This document shows positions 1-3,006 of a stretch of 64,000 bases of DNA, in pieces. Positions within the stretch are counted from its first letter, which is position 1, and each line of letters starts with the position of its first letter. The translations under genes were made by a program, and so were the position numbers. The DNA is from Roseibium sediminis (lineage in GTDB: Bacteria > Pseudomonadota > Alphaproteobacteria > Rhizobiales > Stappiaceae): assembly GCF_008711325.1 (NCBI RefSeq), contig NZ_VXDB01000008.1:1-64000 (forward strand), given 5' to 3'. The notes under the pieces were generated by a model, which did no database searches, was not told the DNA's origin, and saw only the letters and a list, made by a program, of their open reading frames with translations.

Positions 1-423
1 CCGGAAACACCTTCTTCAAATGATCGGCCAGCAATCGCCGGGCCGTGCCAACACAATTACAATCCCCGTGCCAAACGGCTCACGCAGGGTCAGAAAAATA
101 ACAAGACATTGAAATATATGTCTTTGTCGGATCGAGCTGACGCAAAGGCAGCCAAAACTGACAGCCGACACACGACCATCCCCTTGGCAAAACTGGCCAT
201 AAACGGCCAGCCCATCCAGAAAAAGGCACCAAAAAATCGACTAACGTATTGATCTAATGAACAGAACACCCTCTGGCCAAATTTGGCCAGGGCTGGCCAT
301 TTTTGGCCAGCGGCGGAAATACGCGGAGAATCGGCGTAGGTGAAGCGCGCAGAACGCCGATAGAATGCAAAGCGCACACTACAAGTGATCGCAAAACACG
401 TTCGAATTTTTCAGGAAGAAGAG
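1..423. other. Left-edge region, no gene assigned
   Basis: No convincing gene was found in this 423-base stretch before tRNA-Phe. Short open frames touch the left edge on both strands, but none has a recognisable protein signature or a well-placed ribosome binding site. A gene end or start outside the window cannot be excluded. The main structure here is a set of regularly spaced TGGCCA hexamers (entered separately), which suggests regulatory DNA for tRNA-Phe or for a gene lying to the left. Confidence 0.4.
194..309. repeat. Helically phased TGGCCA palindrome array
   Basis: The palindromic hexamer TGGCCA (CGGCCA once) starts at 194, 204, 274, 284, 294 and 304. Within each cluster the step is exactly 10 bases, and the clusters are 70 bases apart, so all six copies lie on the same face of the helix. 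A weaker TTGGCA lies at 184. Spacers differ in sequence, so this is not a simple tandem duplication. Phased short palindromes usually mean cooperative binding of a protein. No known regulator is recognised. Confidence 0.6.
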
Positions 424-499
424 TGGTGCCCAGAGCCGGAATCGAACCAGCGACACGCGGATTTTCAATCCGCTGCTCTACCAACTGAGCTATCTGGGC
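424..499 (-). tRNA. tRNA-Phe (GAA)
   Basis: The reverse strand folds as a canonical 76-nt tRNA with encoded CCA. The acceptor arms are GCCCAGA and TCTGGGC, the D-arm contains AGCTCAGTTGG, the anticodon loop carries GAA, and the T-arm contains GGTTCGATTCC. The discriminator base is A and CCA occupies 424-426. GAA decodes UUC and UUU (phenylalanine). The gene stands alone, with the TGGCCA array downstream of its 3' end on this strand. Confidence 0.97.
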
Positions 500-857
500 A
501 TCTGGCGCTGAACCATGTTGTCCTCGCGCCGGAGTGACGCCCTTATAGTGGGTGGTTTCGGGCTTGTCCAGCACCCCGGCGAAGTTTTTCCAATGCCCCT
601 GCACTTTTTTCACAAGCTGGCGCAACTCTTCTGTAAGCCTCTGTTCCAAAAGGAAAAAGTTTCCCCTTTGCGACCGGGATAACCTGCGGGGCGGTCTGCA
701 ATATTTGGGGCAGCGAGCTGATCATTGCTCCGTACAGACGGAGCATTCAGGAGCATGGTTCAGCGGCTTTGTTCAGGGGCTCAGTTCAGGGTCCCGTTCC
801 GCGGACGGTTCTGCCCGGCTGATGCGACGAAGCGGAACGCCATGCATCCCTGCAAAT
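500..857. other. Intergenic region, no gene seen
   Basis: This stretch lies between the 5' side of tRNA-Phe and the terminator of the nucleotidase gene. Open frames in it overlap neighbours, lack ribosome binding sites and show no domain signatures. The part nearest 500 should hold the tRNA-Phe promoter, but no clear -35/-10 pair could be fixed by eye. Confidence 0.4.
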
Positions 858-886
858 GAAAAACGCGCCGGAGAGACTCCGGCGCG
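858..886 (-). terminator. Rho-independent terminator after the 5'-nucleotidase gene
   Basis: Read on the minus strand, a 10-bp GC stem (864-873 with 877-886, 3-nt loop) is followed by TTTTTC. It begins 28 bases past the stop codon of the nucleotidase gene. Confidence 0.85.
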
Positions 887-913
887 TCGGTATTTCTGCG
901 GTTTTGACCCGGC

Positions 914-2524
914 TTATTGCTCGACGATACGACCGTCGGTGAACGGGGCGTAGCCGGTGTTTTCGGCAAGGTAGTCGGCCACAACGGTTTCAAGACCCGG
1001 ACCGAAGTCATAGGCGTTCATGCCGTTGGTTGCGAAGACCTTGTAGCCGTCGCCGCCGGAGCGCATGTAGTTGTTGGTTGCGACCGTGTAGACCTTTTCC
1101 TGATCGATCGGCACCCACTGGTCGCCTTCCTTGACTTCAACAACAAGGATACGGCCTTGCCCAGCCGGCTTCTTACGGGTCCAGGAGTATTTCATGCCGG
1201 CGACCTGCGGGAAGCGGCCTGCGCCTTCCTCAACTTCAGAGACCCCGTTTTCCAGAGCCGCGACCACGTCGGCGCCCTTCAGCTGGAACGTGGCCAGCGT
1301 GTTCTGGAACGGAAGAACGGTCAGGACTTCGCCCATGGTGATCTCGCCTTCATCGATGGACGCGCGAAGGCCGCCACCGTTCTGGATCACGATCTGGACG
1401 CCCTGCTCCCTGGCGCGAGCGAGCATGGCTTCGGCAACAAGGTTGCCCATGGCGCATTCGCCAGCGCGGCAGGTGTCACGGCTGCCGTCGATCATGCCAG
1501 CCGCAGAGGAAACGACCTGTGCCTTGAGAGCCTCGATCGGCGCACCCAGCTCGGCAACGCGGGCCAGAACCTTTTCGTTCGGCGTGACGGAGTTGTCGAG
1601 CAGGATCGGGTCACCGGCGACCTTGGTCACGTTGCCCGCATCATCAAAGGTGACTTCCACTTCACCCAGATACTTGCCGTAGGCATAGGCCTGCACGATC
1701 GGCACGTCCTTGCCTTCCGGGTTCTTCACCAGAACCGGATACGGGCCCTTGGCCTTCTCGTCGATGTTGGACAGAAGCGTGTGGGAGTGGCCACCAACGA
1801 TCAGGTCGATACCCGGAACAGCTGCAGCGATTTCCATGTCGCGCGGCAGGCCCATGTGGGTCACGGCGATGATCTTGTTGACGCCTGCAGCTTCCAGGCC
1901 TTCAACGGCGCCCTTCAGGTAGTCTTCGCCCTGAATGAAACGCACGCCAGCGCCCGGAGACGAGGTTTCGCCGGTGTCTTCAGCCAGTGCGGACACGATG
2001 CCGACCTTCTGGCCGCCCTTTTCAAGGATGATCACGCCCGGAACCTTGCCCTTCAGGAGCGGCTCGCCGGACACGTCGATATTGCCGGAAATGACCGGGA
2101 AATTCACTTTGCCGAGGAAGTTGGCAAGACCTGCCGGACCGTCGTCAAACTCGTGATTGCCGACTGCCATCACGTCAAAGCCCATGCCGTTCATGAACTC
2201 GGCTGCCGCGTCCCCCTTGTAGGTGGTGTAGAACAGCGAACCCTGGAACTGGTCGCCGGCATCCAGCAGGAGGACGTTCTTGCCTTCGCCTTCCAATGCG
2301 GCGCGGCGCTCGTCAATCTTGGACTGGATACGGGCAACGCCGCCGAAGCACTTGCCTTCGGTCTCGGACTCTGCGTCGCAGGTGGAATCGTACTTGTTGA
2401 TCGATTCAATGCGCGAATGAAGGTCGTTGATGTGCAGCACAGTCAACGAAAAGTCGGCAAATGCCGCGGTGCTCATTGAAGTTGTTAGGGCCAGCGCAGC
2501 TGCGCCGAACAGTGTCTTTTTCAT
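914..2524 (-). CDS. Periplasmic 5'-nucleotidase / UshA-type metallophosphoesterase
   Basis: The 536-residue product is a secreted metallophosphatase that should hydrolyse 5'-nucleotides or nucleotide sugars in the periplasm, releasing phosphate and nucleoside. It opens with a Sec signal peptide (MKKTLFG..., cleaved near residue 23). The N-terminal calcineurin-like domain shows the metal ligands in order: HINDLH (31-36), AGDQF (89-93), GNHEFD (122-127), H223 and GGHSHT (244-249). The C-terminal half is a 5'-nucleotidase substrate domain containing NGGGLRAS. Length fits UshA/NT5E proteins. The start was chosen at the signal-peptide methionine; an upstream in-frame start at 2659 would add 45 residues with no export logic. 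It is monocistronic with its own terminator. Substrate range is not resolved. Confidence 0.9.
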   Translation of the reverse strand: MKKTLFGAAALALTTSMSTAAFADFSLTVLHINDLHSRIESINKYDSTCDAESETEGKCFGGVARIQSKIDERRAALEGEGKNVLLLDAGDQFQGSLFYTTYKGDAAAEFMNGMGFDVMAVGNHEFDDGPAGLANFLGKVNFPVISGNIDVSGEPLLKGKVPGVIILEKGGQKVGIVSALAEDTGETSSPGAGVRFIQGEDYLKGAVEGLEAAGVNKIIAVTHMGLPRDMEIAAAVPGIDLIVGGHSHTLLSNIDEKAKGPYPVLVKNPEGKDVPIVQAYAYGKYLGEVEVTFDDAGNVTKVAGDPILLDNSVTPNEKVLARVAELGAPIEALKAQVVSSAAGMIDGSRDTCRAGECAMGNLVAEAMLARAREQGVQIVIQNGGGLRASIDEGEITMGEVLTVLPFQNTLATFQLKGADVVAALENGVSEVEEGAGRFPQVAGMKYSWTRKKPAGQGRILVVEVKEGDQWVPIDQEKVYTVATNNYMRSGGDGYKVFATNGMNAYDFGPGLETVVADYLAENTGYAPFTDGRIVEQ

Positions 2525-2787
2525 AAAAGCCTCGCCAGTCAAGACGGGGTTCGAGGGGCCGGTTTCCGGCTTCGCTCCCTGATATATCCTCTGGAAGAGT
2601 GTCATCCCAAATGTGGTTGCAACCATGCGCCCGGCAGAGTGGCAATCTCTCCCCGGCACCTCGTAGCATACAAATCGGATCAGCTCCCCATGGAACCGTC
2701 TAGTGCGGTTCCAAGACGCTATTATGACCGTGAAAATTTTTTCACGACAAGCAAAATAATTTAAAAAATTGCCGACGAAGCGTCTGC

Positions 2788-3006
2788 CTAGCCAGCGGAC
2801 GGGTCTTCGTCTTCCACGTCATCGGTTTCAACGGCGGGAATGGAGTAGCCCTCGGAAAACCAGCGGTGCAGATCGACCTGATTGCAGCGCTCGGAGCAGA
2901 ACGGGTAGTCTTCCGGACTGGACAGCTTTGAGCATATCGGACACGGCCGCATGCGCCGCCCGGGGCTGCTGCCCGCGTCCTTTCCGGATGTGCTGTCTTC
3001 GGTCAT
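2788..3006 (-). CDS. yacG: DNA gyrase inhibitor YacG, zinc-binding
   Basis: This is a 72-residue protein of the YacG family, which binds GyrB and inhibits gyrase in Escherichia coli. The single zinc site is visible as CPIC near the start of the domain and FCSERC about 15 residues later, followed by the family's DLxRW stretch. The tail is acidic. The start at 3006 is preferred over 3027 because GGAGGT sits five bases upstream of it. It is the last gene of the maf-yacG end of the housekeeping block and probably shares its transcript. Confidence 0.88.
   Translation of the reverse strand: MTEDSTSGKDAGSSPGRRMRPCPICSKLSSPEDYPFCSERCNQVDLHRWFSEGYSIPAVETDDVEDEDPSAG

Follow-up and report, generated by a model that had tools for sequence, protein, structure and literature searches.

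Near the left end of contig C106, in an assembly of 4.99 Mb and 117 contigs, TGGCCA hexamers follow one another at steps of 10 bp close to a tRNA-Phe gene. Here, we ask what the repeating unit of this array is, where else it occurs, and which kind of protein, if any, would use it. The window is the whole stretch of DNA that was analysed, the first 64,000 nucleotides of the contig. An earlier note on this DNA had described six TGGCCA palindromes held on one face of the helix and had proposed a cooperative or polymerising DNA-binding protein, a nucleoid organiser or an unusual operator.

Dyad structure and helical phase of the array

Exact TGGCCA starts at 194, 274, 284, 294, and 304. The six positions given in the earlier note are right and five of the hexamers are exact, whereas the one at 204 reads CGGCCA, one mismatch from TGGCCA. 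Every interval is a multiple of 10, as the note had it, and a degenerate TGGCAA at 184 falls into the same register. Across the 64-kb window, the TGGCCA count is only mildly elevated (32 observed versus 24.4 ± 4.75 expected; 7 of 100 shuffles reach 32). At the window's TGGCCA rate, the probability of five exact copies within a single 116-bp stretch is ~5e-9, or ~3e-6 when all 116-bp stretches of the window are considered. The cluster is real and far above chance.

The spacers had been regarded as unrelated, which does not hold. All 12 positions of the spacers within the dyads (TAAA, AATT, TTTT) are A/T, and dyads 2 and 3 are separated by GGGC. Since A/T lies inside and GGGC between, the repeat unit is better taken as an 18-bp dyad, CTGGCCA-W4-YGGCCAG, occurring three times, than as a 10-bp repeat (Table 1). 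Each dyad carries its own 10-bp step, so the six hexamers yield just two independent spacings, 80 bp and 20 bp from centre to centre. At 10.5 bp per turn, these correspond to 7.62 and 1.90 turns; dyad 3 is almost in phase with dyad 2, and dyad 1 is out of phase with both. The proposed lock to the helical phase applies inside each cluster but is lost across the 80-bp gap. A handful of dyads is enough to produce hexamer phasing, so phased hexamers should not be tallied as many independent sites.

Table 1. Features at the left end of the window (window coordinates unless a contig is named).
Feature	Position	Strand	Details
Repeated segment	172..313	none	94% identity to own-contig end C47:1-142
Degenerate dyad	183..200	none	CTTGGCA-AAAC-TGGCCAT; overlaps dyad 1 in 10-bp register
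Dyad 1	193..210	none	CTGGCCA-TAAA-CGGCCAG
Spacer between dyad clusters	227..272	none	8 differences/46 bp between copies, length unchanged
Dyad 2	273..290	none	CTGGCCA-AATT-TGGCCAG; perfect, identical in C47 copy
Dyad 3	293..310	none	CTGGCCA-TTTT-TGGCCAG; last G -> A in C47 copy
att-like 51-bp direct repeat	418..468	none	3' 45 bp of tRNA-Phe + 6 bp; exact at C50:2356-2406
tRNA-Phe (gaa), intact	424..499	-	

The open frame at 1-252 was considered as a coding region and rejected. Its GC content by codon position (0.50/0.49/0.51) gives no coding signal, and 40% of simulations produce an open frame of this kind. Among 385 class genomes, it matched only its own two copies; neither a Pfam family (E ≤ 1) nor a plasmid matched it, and of 38 pattern stretches in viral contigs none was confirmed.

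A second copy of the segment and its distribution

Besides the window, the segment 172-313 was found at one further place in the searchable genome, where it forms an end of contig C47; this contig carries no tRNA. There the array points outward, in the same orientation to the contig as in the window. In these searches, 55 of the 60 small contigs fetched (the genome's own contigs <3 kb) read as N, and a third copy or element genes may sit in them. Homology between the two copies ends at 313, just beyond dyad 3. The copies have unrelated flanks and a repeat boundary beside the site array, as at the end of a transposon or IS. The copies differ at 9 positions, 8 of them in 227-272 and 1 at 310, with none in 172-226 (55 bp) or 273-309 (37 bp). 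At the spacer's rate of change, an unchanged 273-309 would have a probability of (38/46)^37, ~9e-4 by hand arithmetic, so selection seems to act on the dyads. Alternatively, recent conversion may have made the two copies alike over this stretch. Contig C47 starts exactly 55 bp ahead of the first difference between the copies, which suggests that the assembler broke there on a longer repeated segment. Two other contigs of the genome begin alike (GGGTCAGTTCTCAGTGAAAATCAACAG, L164:1-55 and L165:1-60), with what resembles an insertion-sequence end.

Exact CTGGCCA-N4-TGGCCAG occurs at three places in the searchable genome, all within the two segment copies. Relaxing the pattern to YGGCCA-N4-YGGCCA adds 11 exact places in the rest of the genome, none of which (0/11) has a purely A/T spacer; at one mismatch, its count (121 + 133) is no higher than that of the reversed control (121 + 144). 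Only the source genome among 45 of the genus carries the segment, which is missing from the other 44. The three-hexamer pattern was found in 2 of 87 family genomes, the second being G069, where the array overlaps open frames near a contig end and was judged unrelated. A/T-centred dyads were present in 5 of 397 order genomes, the source genome included; the other four hold one dyad each, in a context read as coding or uncertain. The 385 class genomes contained no convincing relative of the segment, two 27-29 bp matches in others being judged chance. Plasmids gave two weak ~43-bp matches, and a longer query gave none. These matches (Cereibacter plasmids; 84%, E 0.04) lie at one place in each of 2 records, inside annotated coding genes, and were likewise attributed to chance. 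Phages gave no match to the segment. In the literature, at the level of titles and abstract openings, nothing recognisable was found on a TGGCCA dyad motif.

The array as a possible element end, and alternatives

An end of a mobile segment would account for the two copies with their unrelated flanks, the boundary at the last dyad, the broken contigs, and the lack of the segment in relatives. The missing matches at the tRNA-Phe and sorC-type loci of relatives (below), the att-like duplicate of the neighbouring tRNA-Phe on C50, and the want of a coding signal in 1-252 also speak for it. With middling confidence, we read the array as three putative 18-bp protein-binding palindromes at the outer edge of a strain-specific repeat, which is most likely one end of an integrative or transposable element. 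A dimeric DNA-binding protein belonging to the element, whether a transposase or recombinase, an accessory factor, or a repressor, would occupy the dyads, a pair of adjacent dimers covering dyads 2 and 3 and a further dimer dyad 1. The mobility of the segment, the binding of a protein, and the affiliation of that protein with the element are all three inferred from the sequence. The cooperative protein of the earlier note survives in part: several dimers side by side are plausible and the dyads are conserved against a diverged spacer, but the argument from one face of the helix fails over 80 bp.

Some observations sit less easily with an element end. When the two copies are taken as the ends of one insertion, no target-site duplication is seen by eye. 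On the array side, the contig ends at base 1, and no element gene is in view beside the array. The segment has no convincing relative in the 385 class genomes, the plasmids, or the phages searched, which is odd for a mobile element, and we know of no named transposon family whose ends are TGGCCA dyads. Ends of the IS21, Tn7, and Mu types carry ~20-bp, directly repeated, asymmetric transposase-binding sites. The array resembles them in having several short sites at the very edge of a repeat, at contig ends; it differs in that its sites are palindromic and in that no transposase is seen. It is quite improbable that the dyads form an undescribed mobile-element end on which a recombinase or transposase complex uses palindromic dimer sites instead of asymmetric direct repeats. 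If the dyads are bound by a mobile-element protein, the array would locate one end of a strain-specific element not described so far and would offer a ready probe for its recombinase. A mere duplicated operator would be an ordinary finding.

In PMC11963761, BldC on extended sites is described as taking up about one DNA turn per bound molecule; BldC sites are 9-bp direct repeats, and RdfS has no consensus. As in the operators of these oligomerising wHTH proteins, the site step of the array is about one turn; unlike in them, the sites are dyads, and no such gene is seen beside the array. The closest described analogue is the attachment region of ICEMlSymR7A, which has arm sites of 10 bp and works with the oligomeric protein RdfS. 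Its attP comprises 283 bp with five sites, TGKTGGTATC, and its use of a phe-tRNA gene is given by a title cited in the same source (PMC11963761). The window array is similarly non-coding, adjoins the 3' end of a tRNA-Phe gene that has a direct repeat, and has several sites of ~10 bp. The arm sites described there are asymmetric, in contrast to the palindromic dyads of the window, which also occur in the copy lacking a tRNA.

This analogue leads to the first alternative, in which the dyads would be arm-type or accessory sites in the attachment region of a tRNA-Phe island, bound by a tyrosine integrase or a recombination directionality factor. We consider it unlikely, if still worth weighing. 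In its favour, besides the several 10-bp arm sites of ICEMlSymR7A, the array is found 108-225 bp inward from the 51-bp att-like repeat. A direct repeat of a tRNA 3' end, of the kind that bounds an island, is indeed present here, and farther along C50 (L109) there are type I restriction-modification genes of the hsdR, hsdM, and hsdS families. The 51-bp duplicate and these C50 genes indicate a putative island at tRNA-Phe, its two contigs being unlinked in the assembly. The searchable genome has 12 PF00589 matches, 0 of them on the window's contig.

The neighbourhood of tRNA-Phe in relatives points to a different arm motif. Comparison of the orthologous region beside tRNA-Phe, as the earlier note had suggested, showed no counterpart of the array: in the tRNA-Phe flanks of 12 relatives, nothing matches the window left of 406 (1-405). 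In 3 of the 12 (L113, L114, and L115), TGTCAAAC occurs as a pair, at distances of exactly 86 and 64 bp from tRNA-Phe, and two more relatives have a single TGTCAAAC, at 64 and at 171 bp. The pair in L114 falls within the end of an integrase-like frame with 24% identity to an own-genome PF00589 protein (tblastn). Two TGTCAAAC also lie beside the C50 repeat (L109:2452 and 2493). No exact TGTCAAAC was found in window 1-500, and no TGGCCA was found by reading in C50:2407-2530; assuming that the C50 and window ends belong to one element, the two ends have no arm motif in common. Its placement in relatives and on C50 makes TGTCAAAC a stronger candidate than TGGCCA as the arm motif of the genus's tRNA-Phe integrases. 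This, the asymmetry of the ICEMlSymR7A sites, and the C47 copy on a contig without a tRNA weigh against arm sites in the array.

On the side of tRNA-Phe away from the array, between tRNA-Phe and a 5'-nucleotidase-like gene, we noted a 12-bp perfect inverted pair (506-517/754-765) and a terminator-like hairpin (862-888).

The palindromes might instead work by forming hairpins in RNA or in single-stranded DNA, like REP/MITE-like elements or processing sites, which we regard as distinctly unlikely. Predicted RNA folding of 172-330 is strong on both strands (z -4.6 and -4.2); inverted arms of 21 nt lie at 193-213 and 290-310, and each dyad could form a stem of 6-7 bp with a short loop. However, such folding is expected of any cluster of dyads, and the homology between the copies extends beyond the arms, to at least 172. 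Just two copies exist in the searchable genome, where many would be expected of a REP or MITE, and the sole change within a dyad (310 G to A) is uncompensated. In window 1-3000, only the tRNA exceeds its Rfam gathering score; three matches are below threshold, including MIR169 over 191-310 (E 0.37).

An ordinary host transcription factor might use the dyads as the operator of a gene left of base 1, duplicated together with that gene. Operators commonly take the form of 18-bp dyads centred on A/T, which speaks for this proposal. It is nevertheless improbable: the searchable genome holds no further exact dyad, the segment is missing from the other genus genomes (0/44), and the regulator gene near the C47 copy has a different inverted repeat. 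This gene, downstream of the C47 array, is of the sorC type and is followed, by reading, by sugar-transport genes. The inverted repeat near its start (C47:544-577, L004) is partly common to 4 of 8 relatives and is likely the gene's own operator. The TGGCCA dyads were also considered as a SorC operator on C47, which is unlikely in view of this different repeat. In 8 relatives with this sorC-type gene, C47:1-541 has no match save a 13-bp stretch in two (E 0.93); because nothing upstream of C47:541 aligns, an insertion against the sorC locus of the relatives is not demonstrable.

A nucleoid organiser, or a global protein that polymerises on DNA, along the lines of the earlier note, would suit short palindromes at 10-bp steps within each cluster but is extremely improbable, as exact dyads are confined to two copies of one segment missing from all 44 other genus genomes, looser dyads stay at control level, and the gap of 80 bp is no whole number of turns.

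TGGCCA arrays in other genomes

The earlier note had also proposed searching for 10-bp TGGCCA arrays elsewhere. Such arrays do exist, the four-hexamer pattern occurring at 21 loci of the species-genome collection, but they are of another kind: 16 of the 21 have identical spacers and are perfect tandem 10-mers (judged on the first match of each locus), and none of the 21 has the A/T, mixed, A/T order of spacers seen in the window array. Viral TGGCCA arrays (21 loci) and viral loci with the dyad pattern (n = 4, by reading) were discarded as showing no sequence or context in common with the window.

Open frames beside the arrays were listed at 42 loci (21 genome and 21 viral, several of the latter near-duplicates). 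A tie between TGGCCA arrays and excisionase-type genes was considered and set aside, since one tested protein and a few readings are too few to generalise. By reading only, L142 and L040 resemble helix-turn-helix genes and L050 resembles an integrase. The one protein tested, from L130, belongs to HTH_17. At this Variovorax locus (L130:6000-6055), a tandem TGGCCAAGAC array lies 23 bp upstream of the small HTH_17-family gene.
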